DNA of 64,000 bases from positions 32,717-96,716 of IMG/VR virus record IMGVR_UViG_3300042518_001860; one strand, given 5' to 3'. The translations under genes were made by a program, and so were the position numbers. The notes under the pieces were generated by a model. That model saw only the letters and a program-made list of their open reading frames with translations. It ran no database searches and had not been told where the DNA came from. Source of the DNA: a virus. Shown in pieces: positions 47,253 through 59,743 of this stretch (its first letter is position 1; every line of letters begins with the position of its first letter).

Positions 47253-49664
47253 ATGCTGCACCTCAACGTGTTTGAGGTGCCTGGGGTTATCCGGAAGACT
47301 TTCAAGGTTCGTATCACTGACGACGCCTTCTACCAGAAGGCGGCAGAATTGGTGCGCCTTGTCTCTGGGAACGCCCGGGCGGAAGCCTTCCTGAAGCGCC
47401 AGTACGATGTTGCAGTAATCCTGGATCGTGAAGCCGCACGCACTGTTGCTCAAGCCCTCGAGACAGCCGAAGTCCAGAAGCCAACTGGCTTCGACTTCGA
47501 GACTGACGGTTGGTCTCCGGAGATGCACCGTGACTCACTCTCTGGTGAGCGTGTGTATGTCCGCAGTTTCCCTCCGACGCAGCCAGATGTTCCCCTAACG
47601 CCGATCTGCTTCCAGATCTTCCCGTTCTCTGGTCCAGTGCTGGTCATTGCGGGTGAGCATCTGGACTTGTTCGCGGTGTGGTTGCGGGATCATGCGCTGC
47701 TGGATGGAGCCAACTTAGGTTTCGAGCAGACAGTTGTTCTCCGGAACGGAGGGCGTCTACCTCGTGTCGAACGTGACACCATCGCGATGGACTACTTGGC
47801 GGAAGAGACCCTGCGCCAGGGGCAGCATGACCTGAAGCAGTGTGAGCGTGACTATCTCGGGGTGGAGCCATTGGAGTTCAAGGATGCCTGTGGGGATTCC
47901 ACGTTCAAGGCACGCTTCGAGGACACCTCAGTTGCGCAGTGGGATGTTGCGGTAGAGTACGCCTCCTTCGACGCATGGGGCAGCAGTTTTCTTGCTGATG
48001 TACTGCAATACCACCTGATGCAACGACCCTCGAGAGAGGGGTACGATTCTCTGTGGGATAACTATGTCCACAGTGAGCGCAGTGCGATGCAGGCGGTCAC
48101 CCACATTGATCAGGCGGGCATGCCTGCGCGGCCGGAGGCTATCCGAAGCCACAGCGAGGCGGTCTCGGCTGAGGTGGCTCGAGTGAGCCAAGAGGCGTTA
48201 CTCAGCGTCGGACGAAGCATCAACCTGAGCTCAAACAAAGAGCTCGCCCAGTTGTTCTATCAGGAACGAGGCTACCCAGTGACGACAGTCACTGACGGGT
48301 TTACTTGCATCCTGTGCAACAAGAGCGTCAACGCGCGCACGAATAACCTGTGCAAGGTGCATGGGGCTGGTGCGCTGGTCAACACGCCGAAGGTTGATGA
48401 AGAGGCACTCGAGGTCCTAGCCAAGAAAGGTGACAATGTCGCTGGCCTCATCATTGAGCGGCGAGGTCTCGAGAAGAAGCTGAACTCCTTCATCGAACCG
48501 CTCTTCCTCCGCAGTTCAGACCCCAAAGCTGAGCTCGGTCGTTACCCATGGGCGATGGATGCTCCCGGCAATCGAGTCTGGCATCCGGCCCTGCGGGCGA
48601 CTCACGTCGAGTCTGGTCGACTCAGCGCGCCATTGGCGCTCACCTTGCCAGTGGAATTCAAGGACGTCATCGGCTTCGATGAGGCGGCCGGGTGGTCAGT
48701 CATTGACTGTGACTACAGTCAGCTCGAGCTGCGCGTCATGGCGCATCTCTCGAGGGACCCGGTCCTCATCGACGCCTTTGCACGAGGCCTCGACATGCAC
48801 GCTCTCACGGGCGTCTTTATCGAAGGCTTCCTGACATCAGGGGAGCGGTTCCTGGCAGACAAAGGCGCACAGGATCGCCTCTATGCCGAGTTCATGCGAG
48901 CAAAGAAGTGGGAATCTGGCGAGCTCAAGGAGGAAGACCCACAGCTCCACCGAAGGTTCAAGTGGCTGCTCGAGCGACGAAAGCAGGGCAAGACCCTGAA
49001 CTTCGCGAAGATCTACGGTGCAGGCGACGATAAGCTGGCAATCAGCTTTGCGGTGCCCTTGGCAGAGGCCAAGAAGATCTCCGGCGCCGTCATGGCCTCG
49101 TACGCGGGTATGGCAGGATTCATCGAGCGTCGCATTCAGGAGCTCGAACAAGACCCGGTCATGGTGACACTGGGCGGTCGGAATCGGAAGATCTGGCAGG
49201 TCCAATCTCAAGATCCGCGAGAGCGGGCTGAAGGGGAACGCCTGGCCACGAACCAGTCTTGTCAGGCTGGCGCGCGGGACATCATCACCGGGGCGATGAT
49301 CCAGATCGACATGGACATTGAGGCAGGGGGAGGGTACGGTAGTTCAGGTCGCGGTTCGTATGGGTTTTGGAAGCAAGGCAGTTACGTCCCGGACTTTGAC
49401 CGACTGCCCAAGTCCTGGCGAGAGAAGTTCCCGAAAGCACTCGGGGCGAATTTCGGAGCCTTGGGGCGCATGGGCGCTCGTATCGTCAACCAAGTCCACG
49501 ACGAATTGGTCGCTGTGGCCCCCACGCCATACGCTGAGTTGGTTCGAGACCGAATGGTGGCGCTTATGGAAGAGCCGTGGGGAGAGGATCTTCCTCTTGA
49601 TGTTGTCCTGAAAGCTGAGGGGACAGTGGGCCTGACTTGGCGACAGTGTAAAGGGAAGGGTTGA
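47253..49664 (+). CDS. Family A DNA polymerase with 3'-5' exonuclease
   Basis: The 803-residue protein has an exonuclease domain (GFDFETDGWSP near residue 78, then VERDTIAMDYLAEETL) and a polymerase domain: motif A DCDYSQLELRVMAHLS (Asp485), motif B RRKQGKTLNFAKIYGAGD (about 575-592) and motif C VHDELVAV (about 748-755). It is the replicative polymerase. Unusually the thumb region carries a zinc-finger-like insertion, CILCNKS and CKVHGAG (Cys352, Cys355, Cys367, His370), just before NTPKVDEEAL. A Gly-rich insertion (GGGYGSSGRGSYGFW) precedes motif C. The frame is uninterrupted, so there is no intein inside it. Confidence 0.93.
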   Translation: MLHLNVFEVPGVIRKTFKVRITDDAFYQKAAELVRLVSGNARAEAFLKRQYDVAVILDREAARTVAQALETAEVQKPTGFDFETDGWSPEMHRDSLSGERVYVRSFPPTQPDVPLTPICFQIFPFSGPVLVIAGEHLDLFAVWLRDHALLDGANLGFEQTVVLRNGGRLPRVERDTIAMDYLAEETLRQGQHDLKQCERDYLGVEPLEFKDACGDSTFKARFEDTSVAQWDVAVEYASFDAWGSSFLADVLQYHLMQRPSREGYDSLWDNYVHSERSAMQAVTHIDQAGMPARPEAIRSHSEAVSAEVARVSQEALLSVGRSINLSSNKELAQLFYQERGYPVTTVTDGFTCILCNKSVNARTNNLCKVHGAGALVNTPKVDEEALEVLAKKGDNVAGLIIERRGLEKKLNSFIEPLFLRSSDPKAELGRYPWAMDAPGNRVWHPALRATHVESGRLSAPLALTLPVEFKDVIGFDEAAGWSVIDCDYSQLELRVMAHLSRDPVLIDAFARGLDMHALTGVFIEGFLTSGERFLADKGAQDRLYAEFMRAKKWESGELKEEDPQLHRRFKWLLERRKQGKTLNFAKIYGAGDDKLAISFAVPLAEAKKISGAVMASYAGMAGFIERRIQELEQDPVMVTLGGRNRKIWQVQSQDPRERAEGERLATNQSCQAGARDIITGAMIQIDMDIEAGGGYGSSGRGSYGFWKQGSYVPDFDRLPKSWREKFPKALGANFGALGRMGARIVNQVHDELVAVAPTPYAELVRDRMVALMEEPWGEDLPLDVVLKAEGTVGLTWRQCKGKG

Positions 49665-50581
49665 TGCTGAGCGCGGATACCGAGGTGCTGTCGAAGGATG
49701 GGTGGGTTAAAGTTTCTGAGGTTACGGAGACCCGACCCATTCTCCAGGCTTGGCCTATCTCCGGCGGAACGGTCGAGCTGGAGTGGTCCAGGGCCTCGGT
49801 ATCCGCGCAGGCTGGGCTCTCTCAATTCGCACTTTGCGAGGCTGAGACTGTTACGTTTCGCGCAACCACCGACCACACAATGCTTGTTGTTGCACCAGAT
49901 GGGCGTTGGATCGAGGGCACCCTCTCCAGCCTACGCAACTTCCATCGGCTTCCTGCCGCAGGTCTTCTCAGGGCAGGTGATCACCTTGACGAGCGTGGGC
50001 GCCTTGTCTTGGCGGTTGCACTGGCGACACAAGCAGACGGTAGCTTCACGGAGGCCGGGGCTATTGACTTTGGGTTTCAGAAAGTCAGGAAGGTCGAAAG
50101 GCTCAAGAGTCTCCTGAAGCAGGCCAACATCTCCTTCCGATACACGCATCAGGAGGCGAAGGGTCGTCACAGATTCATCATCCCGCCCCCGCAGGCTATC
50201 AAGATCAAGGCCCTACTGACCAAGGACAAGCAGCTTCTCTGGAACCTCCTGCAACTTGCACCTCCAGAACGAGATGGGGTGCTCGAGGAGATTGTTCATT
50301 GGGACTCCTCTGTAGAGGATGGCGGGTTCCGTTTCTCGACTGCACACTTCCATAACGCGGAGATCGTTCTCGCGCTGGCGGCAATCGGCGGACGCAGGGC
50401 GCGACTATCTGCTGATCGCGAGTGGTGGAGGGTGCGGGTAACCACTGCTTCTGCCCATGACCTTCAGAAGGTCAAGGTCACTCTCTCAGAGGCCGAAGGC
50501 CAAGTTTTCAAGATCCTGAATAGCTCGGGGTACATCCTGGCTCGCCAAGGCGGGACCACCCTGATCACGCGAGGTTGGTGA
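49664..50581 (+). CDS. Free-standing intein-like (Hint plus LAGLIDADG-type) protein
   Basis: ATG 49664 shares its A with the polymerase stop. The 305-residue product begins LSADTEVLSKDGWVKVSEV, the classic block A of inteins without the leading Cys or Ser (the start Met takes its place). RATTDHTMLV near residue 70 is block B with TxxH. A LAVALATQADGSF helix with downstream KVRKVERLKSLLKQANISF resembles a DOD homing endonuclease. The end, GQVFKILNSSGYILARQGGT, TLITRGW, matches blocks F and G, but the terminal Asn and following nucleophile are missing. So it cannot splice and is likely a liberated intein or homing endonuclease. Confidence 0.75.
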   Translation: MLSADTEVLSKDGWVKVSEVTETRPILQAWPISGGTVELEWSRASVSAQAGLSQFALCEAETVTFRATTDHTMLVVAPDGRWIEGTLSSLRNFHRLPAAGLLRAGDHLDERGRLVLAVALATQADGSFTEAGAIDFGFQKVRKVERLKSLLKQANISFRYTHQEAKGRHRFIIPPPQAIKIKALLTKDKQLLWNLLQLAPPERDGVLEEIVHWDSSVEDGGFRFSTAHFHNAEIVLALAAIGGRRARLSADREWWRVRVTTASAHDLQKVKVTLSEAEGQVFKILNSSGYILARQGGTTLITRGW

Positions 50582-52095
50582 TGGCACGCAAGAAGGTTGA
50601 GACACAGCAGGCCGGTGAAGAACTCAACGCTCGGGATGAAGACCTCATCCGGGAGATCATTGGCCGGATCGACCTCAATCTCCCCGAGGCCGCGCGTGCG
50701 CTAGACGAGTTGCACGCTCGAGGCGCGGCGACTTTCGAATATGAGATGTTGGCCGAGGAGTATCCGTTCGGCTTTGCTGACGGATTCCGCCCCGTCTCAA
50801 GCACGAAGCATCTCCAGGTTGTGGCTATGCTTCGGCAGTCCATGTCGAGCTCGAAGGCTGAGCTTGTGATTAGGACGGGGCGAGAGGTGGAAGCCTACCG
50901 TTCCTCTCGCATCCCAACCGGCAACGCGAACCTCGATAATGTTCTCGGCGGCGGGGTGAAGCGAGGGGTGGTTACGCAGTTCAAGGGTGGACCCTCCCAC
51001 GGGAAGAGCTTCGCCTGCCTCCAGGTTGCTGCTGAGGTACTCCGACGTGGTGGGCATGTCCTCTGGTTGGCCCTGGAGCCTTTCGATACGGATTGGGCCC
51101 GCAAGTGCGGCGTACCTATCCACTACGCTTCACCAGAGCCCGGCTCGGATGAGGAGAGGTACAATCAAACCCACCCACGGGGCCTCCACTTCGACCTCAT
51201 TGTAGGCGAGGCAGGGAACGCGGTACTGCAGACGGTCTGCAACGCGGTGAAGCTCAACGCCTGGGACTTGATCGTCATTGACTCCATCGCCACGGCGATC
51301 TCCCGGGTCCACCTCGAGGGTAAAGAAGTTGGTGACTCTTTGCCTGGTGGTGAAGCCTTCATGATCAACCAGTTCATGTCTCGCCTGCAGACCGCCTTCA
51401 ACTCTGTAGAAGCGAACGTTGGGCGGGTCTTGAACAAGAGCTTCCTTTGCACCACTTGTGGTGAAACCTTCAACAAGAAGAATGAGCATGAGAAGTGCCC
51501 GCCCCTTGAGAAGGGGAAGCCCAAGTTCGAGGAGAACCAGGAGGTGGGAGACCCACCGCGCGCAGGGGTGATCCTCGTGAATCAGCTCCGGGCTCAGGGT
51601 ATCGGGGCCTCTATGCCTGTTGCCCCTGATGCGAATGGTGGCATGGGACTGCAACACGGAAAGAGCGTTGATGTCCTCTTCTCTGGCGCGGTCCAGCTCA
51701 AGACCACCGTTGATGGGGATGAGGTGGTTTTTGGGGTCGTCTCCACGATCAAGACCACCAAGAACAAAACAGCAACGCCCCACCTCGAGGGCGTTTTCGA
51801 GATCTGGGTGCGGGACGTTGAGGGTGTGGCTATCGCCGGCCAGTGCAACCTGATGACTGACCTGGTCGGACGTACGGTATCCTTCGGGAAGGACAACAAG
51901 AAGGTCTTCCCGGGTCTCGCCCTCAAGCTGGGGATTATTGAGCAGCGGGGCGCGTGGTACTACATTGGGGAGGGGGAAGACAAGCGGGGCTTCCAAGGGC
52001 TCGACGCTCTGCAGGGCTTCCTCGCCGAGAACCCTGCGGTTGTTCGTGCGCTTCGCTCAGAGATGTCCAAACGTCTCCGGCTTGGTGTAGCATGA
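50581..52095 (+). CDS. RecA/UvsX-type recombinase with zinc-knuckle insertion
   Basis: From ATG 50581 (overlapping the previous stop) the 504-residue protein has a RecA core: TGNANLDNVLGGGVKRGVVT, Walker A FKGGPSHGKSFACLQ near residue 136, HVLWLALEPFD, LIVIDSIATAIS as Walker B, and ILVNQLRAQGIGASMPV followed by NGGMGLQHGKSVDVLFSG. That last pair matches the RecA loop 2 region. Between Walker B and loop 2 lies CTTCGETFNKKNEHEKCPP (Cys290, Cys293, His303, Cys306), an apparent zinc knuckle absent from bacterial RecA. It promotes strand exchange in phage recombination and replication. Confidence 0.82.
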   Translation: MARKKVETQQAGEELNARDEDLIREIIGRIDLNLPEAARALDELHARGAATFEYEMLAEEYPFGFADGFRPVSSTKHLQVVAMLRQSMSSSKAELVIRTGREVEAYRSSRIPTGNANLDNVLGGGVKRGVVTQFKGGPSHGKSFACLQVAAEVLRRGGHVLWLALEPFDTDWARKCGVPIHYASPEPGSDEERYNQTHPRGLHFDLIVGEAGNAVLQTVCNAVKLNAWDLIVIDSIATAISRVHLEGKEVGDSLPGGEAFMINQFMSRLQTAFNSVEANVGRVLNKSFLCTTCGETFNKKNEHEKCPPLEKGKPKFEENQEVGDPPRAGVILVNQLRAQGIGASMPVAPDANGGMGLQHGKSVDVLFSGAVQLKTTVDGDEVVFGVVSTIKTTKNKTATPHLEGVFEIWVRDVEGVAIAGQCNLMTDLVGRTVSFGKDNKKVFPGLALKLGIIEQRGAWYYIGEGEDKRGFQGLDALQGFLAENPAVVRALRSEMSKRLRLGVA

Positions 52096-58863: not shown

Positions 58864-59492
58864 CGGGAGGCTTCTTTCTCGTGAATGAGGCCCAAGAGGA
58901 CCTCTCGGCTTGCCTTGCGGGGCACCTTGCCACCGAGGCGGCGAAGATAGTCTGCCAACTGACTGCGGCCCATGGCGTAGAGGTCCATGGCGCTCGGGCG
59001 AGTAACGTAACTGTTGATGCTTTTCTCCACGCGGTCAAGCCTATCGTGAAGTTTTTGTACCATTAAGGCCAGGTCCAACATGGCCCTGGACTCGCGACTC
59101 TGTGCCGGCTGGCTCTCGAGCCAAAGGCGTAGGATGCTGTTGGAAAGACGCCGAGGGTCCCCTGGGTATCCACGCCGCTCGTATTCCGCCTCCATGGCCG
59201 GGCGGTCGAGAGCAGCACGGTAAGAGAGGATGACCTCCCGTAGAACCGCCGCCTCGGGTACCCTTAGAGCCTCTGCGGTGTCAACGATTCCCAGAAAGAG
59301 GGTCTCCTTCATGGTGGCCCTCATCGGCCGCCCGCCCCCAGAATCCCCGCCGGGGGGCAGGCCCTGAGCGGCGAGCAGGGGCAGCCCGAACTCGAGTGCT
59401 GCCTCGAGTACCCTGCGCCGCTCTTTGGCTGGCATGGCACGGAGCTCGTCCGTAAAGGCACACTCGGGTGGGCGAAAGACGAGCGTCTTCAC
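58860..59492 (-). CDS. Unknown protein, 210 aa
   Basis: The 210-residue protein is helical. The first part (DELRAMPAKERRRVLEAALE) is basic/acidic, a Gly-rich loop follows, and the middle and C-terminal parts (LDLALMVQKLHDRLDRVEKS, AMGRSQLADYLRRLGGKVPR) contain a possible coiled coil. It couples to both neighbours by four-base overlaps. No motif recognised. Confidence 0.5.
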   Translation of the reverse strand: MKTLVFRPPECAFTDELRAMPAKERRRVLEAALEFGLPLLAAQGLPPGGDSGGGRPMRATMKETLFLGIVDTAEALRVPEAAVLREVILSYRAALDRPAMEAEYERRGYPGDPRRLSNSILRLWLESQPAQSRESRAMLDLALMVQKLHDRLDRVEKSINSYVTRPSAMDLYAMGRSQLADYLRRLGGKVPRKASREVLLGLIHEKEASR

Positions 59493-59743
59493 GAGACCTC
59501 CAGTTGAGTGCCGTACACGACCTTGAAGAAGAACGCCTTGGCTTCGCCCCGCTGCTCACTGGTCACGACCACCTCGTCGATTTGGAAGAGGAGCGAGGCA
59601 ATGTAAGTGTGAATGTCTCCCAAGCGAAGGCGTTCGACGTTGATCTTGGGTTGGCCTGGGAGGTGGTACTGCAAGAGTGCAGCACAGACAAGAGCTTCCA
59701 TATCGTGATAGTTCGCTGTCGTCTGTTCAAGGTAGAGAATCAT
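59489..59743 (-). CDS. Unknown protein, 84 aa
   Basis: A small protein with ILYLEQTTANYHDMEALVCA and IHTYIASLLFQIDEVVVTSE; it looks like a mixed alpha/beta fold. It is coupled by four-base overlap to the regulator-like gene upstream. Only the tight coupling and codon use support it. Confidence 0.5.
   Translation of the reverse strand: MILYLEQTTANYHDMEALVCAALLQYHLPGQPKINVERLRLGDIHTYIASLLFQIDEVVVTSEQRGEAKAFFFKVVYGTQLEVS

Follow-up and report, generated by a model that had tools for sequence, protein, structure and literature searches.

A free-standing intein-derived gene, putatively encoding a homing endonuclease, beside an intein-free DNA polymerase gene in an uncultured phage

Gene layout between the polymerase and recA genes

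The window analyzed here is a 64,000-nucleotide stretch of DNA from an uncultured phage, corresponding to positions 32717-96716 of a 96,716-base IMG/VR virus record. Within a replication array that comprises DnaB-like, primase-like, polymerase and RecA genes, the family-A DNA polymerase gene is followed directly by an intein-derived gene and then by a RecA/UvsX-like recombinase gene (Table 1). The frame of the intein-derived gene is intact over 305 codons, from the ATG at 49664 to the TGA at 50579-50581, and is -1 relative to that of the polymerase. One-base overlaps of the type TGATG are found at both of its ends, with the polymerase gene upstream and the recombinase gene downstream, and purine-rich, Shine-Dalgarno-like stretches precede its start as well as that of the recombinase gene; a Shine-Dalgarno-like GAGG and the overlap with the following start codon also fall within the bases encoding its C-terminal end. 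Its GC content by codon position is 0.64/0.47/0.65, its GC3 and codon usage are near those of the neighboring genes, and it occurs as a single copy in the record. The order polymerase, putative endonuclease and recA is operon-like, and the location of the gene, on its own between conserved phage genes, is that of free-standing homing endonucleases.

The polymerase next to it was described in the initial annotation as intact and uninterrupted, and this was borne out, since motifs A, B and C are kept and the C terminus is as in other family-A polymerases. The position in motif B at which related inteins are inserted is empty, and the residue before the Lys of this site is Gly, where most relatives have Ala. 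Two further polymerase features were observed in the window. At 49330-49480, before motif C, the polymerase carries a stretch of about 40-50 extra residues (GGGYGSSGRGSYGFWKQGSYVPDFDRLPKSWREKFPKALGANFGALGRMG) that is absent from most aligned phage polymerases. In addition to the full polymerase gene, 59492-59743 on the minus strand encodes an 84-residue miniature piece of a family-A polymerase, from motif A to the motif B region (...DIHTYIASLLF..TSEQRGEAKAFFFKVVYG), which spans the counterpart of the motif-B intein insertion site and matches Pfam DNA_pol_A with an E value of 1e-7 (31.7 bits, narrowly missing the 34.3 cut-off). A second stand-alone miniature of this kind was not found; the four IMG/VR matches checked were long polymerase frames. 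A short likeness of the two gene junctions (GGTTG...ATG) was considered as an insertion footprint and is not claimed as such, both being ordinary start-site sequence.

Table 1. Features of the locus and inteins of the polymerase motif-B group (positions in the window; ^ marks the insertion point)
Feature	Position	Strand	Basis
Family-A DNA polymerase gene, 803 aa, intact, no intein	47253..49664	+	Pfam DNA_pol_A E 2.7e-49; alignment to relatives
Empty intein site in polymerase motif B, ERRKQGK^TLNFAKIYG, junction between 48992 and 48993	48969..49016	+	Alignment of intein-stripped polymerases; site DNA
Free-standing intein-derived gene, 305 aa	49664..50581	+	ORF; profile match; AlphaFold2 model; Foldseek
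Start codon at intein position 1, Met replacing the Cys1 nucleophile; A common to the polymerase TGA stop (TGATG)	49664..49666	+	Sequence
Block B, TTDH (Thr68, His71), retained	49865..49876	+	Alignments
LAGLIDADG motif 1, QADGS, predicted catalytic Asp125, retained	50030..50044	+	Asp in 96% of aligned inteins
LAGLIDADG motif 2, EEIVHWD (in EEIVHWDSS), predicted catalytic Asp214, retained	50288..50308	+	Asp in 96% of aligned inteins
C-terminal TRGW and stop, replacing T-G-(N/Q) plus Cys/Ser/Thr	50567..50581	+	Sequence; alignments
RecA/UvsX-like recombinase gene, immediately following; its ATG overlaps the stop of the intein-derived gene	50581..52095	+	Pfam RecA 1e-16; PHROG UvsX-like 3.8e-26
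Phage polA motif-B inteins: L018, L019, L021, L051, L101, L102, L103, L105, L107 (IMG/VR); L239 (gammaproteobacterial bin)			

Intein homology and loss of the splicing residues

The initial annotation had recognized intein block A (LSADTEVLSKDGW), block B, a LAGLIDADG helix (ALATQADGSF) and block F/G in this reading frame, and all of them are present; a second LAGLIDADG motif, containing Asp214, was not listed there. The Hint fold, for which a structure prediction had been suggested as a check, was obtained with high confidence: the AlphaFold2 model based on 57 relatives (mean pLDDT 95.1, pTM 0.93) combines a Hint domain (approximately residues 1-105 and 265-305), carrying blocks A, B, F and G, with a LAGLIDADG endonuclease domain (approximately residues 110-262). 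The best matches of this model in the PDB by Foldseek were the endonuclease-bearing inteins PhoVMA, TliVMA and PI-SceI, the last also called VDE (E 1e-12; PDB entries of the three, 1vde, 7qst and 7qsu), followed by I-DmoI, and WhiA was also among the fold matches. Viral structures that matched were inteins within ribonucleotide reductase (RNR), polymerase and terminase proteins. The three VMA inteins share the bidomain architecture at 10-14% identity but, unlike the present protein, are splicing inteins within VMA ATPase genes.

Relationship at the sequence level was found as well. A profile of 12 phage inteins, built without the intein-derived protein, gave it a score of 112 bits over residues 2-303, and a tblastn search of named phages matched inteins in the RNR genes of a Vibrio phage and of Pectobacterium phage phiTE at 24-26% identity, with alignments that covered 98-99% of its length (E about 1e-5). 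The Pfam intein model reached only E 0.035, under its cut-off, so that this model alone would have missed the gene. A phmmer search of the PDB with the single sequence gave nothing useful, and it was the profile and fold searches that matched. Taken as sequence evidence, the full-length homology to the phage intein family is beyond chance, and the gene encodes a complete intein, Hint and LAGLIDADG domains included, without exteins.

An intein starts with Cys or Ser, or with Ala when class 2 or 3 chemistry is used, ends with Asn or Gln followed by Cys, Ser or Thr of the C-extein, and lies in frame within its host protein. Here, position 1 is Met, the last residues TRGW are followed by a stop codon, and the gene has a separate frame and start, with intact polymerase and RecA on its two sides. 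The replacement of the nucleophile by the start Met and the TRGW end were as the initial annotation had given them, while relatives have Gly-Asn or Gly-Gln and then Cys, Ser or Thr. In the other instances of the family, position 1 is Cys in 211 of 213 and Ala in the remaining 2, and all 213 are inside longer host proteins, where the 213 are those in the fetched loci and are not independent of this feature because about half of the loci were chosen for Cys1 (the first 80 and another 16 were not). A scan of IMG/VR for block A in which the codon of position 1 was ATG, GTG or TTG gave no case, against at least 120 with TGY. As the initial annotation had proposed, the present copy is free-standing; its relatives are fused, but this does not refute the proposal, and neither of the two refuting conditions named there applies.

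At the block F position, the protein has Lys, which means that the Cys used by class 3 inteins is absent too. Loss of the block F Cys was rejected as a sign of lost splicing in itself; the fused inteins of polymerase motif B vary at this position as well. Since the closest relatives end with Gly-Gln rather than Gly-Asn, the terminal residue that was lost is probably Gln. As far as the sequence can tell, splicing by any known class is ruled out, because Met stands for Cys1, Trp stands for the terminal Asn or Gln, and there are no exteins.

A similar picture could arise if an ordinary fused intein had been separated from its host by an assembly error, a frameshift or a programmed frameshift, and the -1 frame, the one-base overlap and an AAAGGGA near the polymerase stop, though out of slippery-heptamer phase, could be read in this way. 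We consider such an artefact or hidden fusion highly improbable, because the gene lies beyond the complete C terminus of the polymerase, not in motif B, and is without the splice residues. Moreover, no single insertion or deletion yields Cys1, a terminal Asn or Gln, or a +1 nucleophile; the downstream RecA has its own start; and no second copy is found in the 96.7-kb record.

Relationship to the inteins of polymerase motif B

The connection with the polymerase, a guess in the initial annotation, finds good support in the comparison to the inteins of phage family-A polymerases that it had proposed. The seven best BLAST matches of the intein-derived protein were all phage polA motif-B inteins, and its score with a profile of nine such inteins was 194.5 bits, compared with 143.4 bits for inteins of another polA site (RLSSxxPN^CQN) and no more than 110 bits for the RNR, terminase-like, helicase and remaining groups. 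Inteins of the motif-B group are inserted after (A)K and before the Ser, Thr or Cys of xNFxxxYG, that is, at (A)K^[S/T/C]. They align with the intein-derived protein over the full length at 26-32% identity, have the Hint and LAGLIDADG motifs in common with it, and share the stretches ATQADGS, FGFxKxRK and LARxGG. In contrast to the present copy, which is a separate gene lacking Cys1 and the terminal Gln and is found next to a polymerase with an empty site, they lie in frame inside polA with both residues intact, and are expected to splice. The IMG/VR members of this clade (Table 1) end with GQ, HQ or NQ, not with Asn, and are followed by Ser, Thr or Cys, forming a coherent group with a non-canonical C terminus.

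In a 40-row tree, from which long branches had been removed and terminal residues trimmed, the protein grouped with the polA motif-B inteins with a bootstrap value of 99. The AU test rejected neither a grouping with the RNR inteins (p 0.335) nor one with the other polA site (p 0.07). A 56-row tree supported the polA placement at 96/81, but two constrained trees outscored the free tree, indicating an unstable search, so that we base the placement on the profile scores together with the 40-row tree. The branch leading to the intein-derived protein is itself long, at about 1.4-1.7 changes per site. From these comparisons, an origin from the polA motif-B inteins is likely; we do not put it more firmly because the AU test did not reject the alternatives and the 56-row search was unstable.

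The AU result leaves some room for a free-standing endonuclease that derives from the intein of another host gene (for example RNR or the other polA site), lies beside the polymerase by chance and cuts elsewhere, for instance on the recA side or in another phage gene. Free-standing endonucleases of phage T4 frequently have their cleavage sites at a distance of hundreds to thousands of bases (PMC2988022), which would suit such an arrangement. Nevertheless, this origin is improbable, as the motif-B match is 51 bits above that of the next group, which is also of polA, and 84 bits or more above all others, and the motif-B placement has the bootstrap value given above.

Single-sequence searches of IMG/VR found no close relatives of the intein-derived gene, the polymerase or the RecA-like protein, and for the intein-derived gene none was found in GTDB genomes or named phages either. 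With the motif-B alignment, GTDB genomes gave no match, and a wider alignment gave one fused polA intein (L239). The free gene is thus known from a single metagenomic example.

Endonuclease core and possible mode of spread

We compared the retention of conserved positions, defined as those conserved in at least 75% of the relatives, between the two domains. The intein-derived protein kept 16 of 17 such columns in the endonuclease and 13 of 22 in the Hint and terminal parts, and this gap was the widest among 58 sequences, although the significance is modest (Fisher p 0.024) and some polA relatives lean toward the same imbalance. The retained residues include the invariant Lys143, and both LAGLIDADG helices end with a predicted catalytic Asp (Asp125 and Asp214), as in enzymes of the LAGLIDADG (DOD) type, in agreement with the fold match to I-DmoI. 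Selective sparing of the endonuclease columns fits a release from splicing with the nuclease still in use.

This pattern also bears on two readings in which homing plays no part. The intein may have been domesticated for a phage function apart from homing, such as DNA binding, replication or regulation together with the polymerase and recA. WhiA is an example of a LAGLIDADG protein that became a regulator, and HO of a WHO-like element that became a mating-type nuclease. The tight placement inside the replication array with one-base overlaps at both ends, the presence of WhiA among the fold matches, and a Hint fold predicted with high confidence despite the lost splicing role would all suit domestication. 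We regard it as rather unlikely, since both predicted catalytic Asp residues have been retained along with almost the full set of conserved endonuclease residues, for which binding alone would have no need, and since fixation in a lineage is unsupported, no close relative having been found.

The gene may otherwise be a decaying relic, that is, a copy of a recently expelled intein that has no function and is still unbroken. Homing genes cycle through decay, and the loss of many Hint and terminal consensus positions and the single copy are consistent with it. However, the whole frame of 305 codons is open despite the long branch, the endonuclease residues are selectively spared, the gene has its Shine-Dalgarno-like sequence and its overlaps with the adjoining stop and start codons, and its codon usage resembles that of the neighbors. 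We therefore judge a relic unlikely.

The reading that we favor, and consider probable, is that the gene encodes a free-standing, intein-derived homing endonuclease, most likely of the polA motif-B lineage, which spreads by cutting rival polymerase genes. The protein would be translated from its own start codon and would bind and cut the intein-free polA of related phages infecting the same cell. With the donor genome as template for repair, the endonuclease gene would be copied along with the neighboring cleavage-resistant polymerase allele, a process of intronless homing. The genome carrying it would be protected by sequence differences in its polymerase, and not by an interrupted site; this presupposes immunity to self-cleavage, because the adjacent polymerase gene still codes for K^T there. 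The Hint domain, once freed from splicing, would have drifted at catalytic and terminal positions while the endonuclease core was kept. The initial annotation had suggested that an intein left its extein and then either served on as a homing endonuclease or took up another function; the fold, the homology, the lost residues and the absence of exteins agree with this, whereas the endonuclease activity, its target and the exit from polA are what we infer from them.

A more specific history is proposed tentatively, and we hold it to be possible. A polA motif-B intein may have left its site to become a free gene just 3′ of the polymerase gene that had housed it, without splicing, and may now drive its own resistant polymerase allele by cutting the polA of competitors at the ancestral insertion site, as a prokaryotic counterpart of WHO and HO.

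Both parts of this scheme have parallels. For the free-standing endonucleases of T4, cleavage at distant sites and intronless homing are established (PMC2988022). The Seg and Mob proteins of this phage likewise are free-standing between conserved replication genes, and the same mechanism of spread is predicted here, but the T4 enzymes are of the GIY-YIG or HNH type, whereas the present protein is an intein-derived LAGLIDADG protein with a Hint domain (PMC2988022). In yeast, WHO elements are intein-like, have no exteins, lie downstream of FBA1 and cut FBA1 in an allele-specific manner, and HO was domesticated from the WHO family (PMC7282813). WHO and HO share with the present protein an intein-like organization with a LAGLIDADG endonuclease, the absence of exteins and splicing, and a gene of their own. 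As WHO is directly downstream of the host gene that it cuts, so the intein-derived gene adjoins its putative host gene. On the other hand, WHO and HO are eukaryotic, related to VDE, possess a zinc finger at the C terminus and are proven to cleave, whereas the present protein ends at block G without an added domain, has phage polA inteins as its nearest kin, and is predicted to cleave.

Each of the elements involved, namely inteins, LAGLIDADG enzymes, free-standing phage endonucleases and WHO/HO, has been described before, and what is new is that they come together in a phage, beside a polymerase whose ancestral site is empty. In the literature searched, the coverage of which was partial, we found intein-derived endonucleases with a gene of their own reported from fungi only, and within this coverage the gene would be the first known case outside fungi of an intein that became a stand-alone homing nuclease. 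Discussions of how endonucleases come to enter splicing elements, or to leave them, generally have endpoints to go by. The present lineage appears to display both states, with many polA motif-B inteins and one free gene directly downstream of an intein-free polA. The exit route becomes testable, with an expected target defined to the single base and with both the fused and the free form of the enzyme accessible to expression and comparison.

Some further inteins were also noted. The DNA polymerase intein of Lactococcus phage KSY1 (L010:2498-3406) is a mirror case, in which the splicing residues are kept and the LAGLIDADG catalytic positions are lost. Two phage inteins (L063:3998-4936 and L083:3989-4930) start with Ala and have Cys after their end, like class 2 inteins. 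The viral contigs L066, L069/L070, L075, L077 and L113 each carry two inteins of the family, in different or neighboring genes within a few kilobases.
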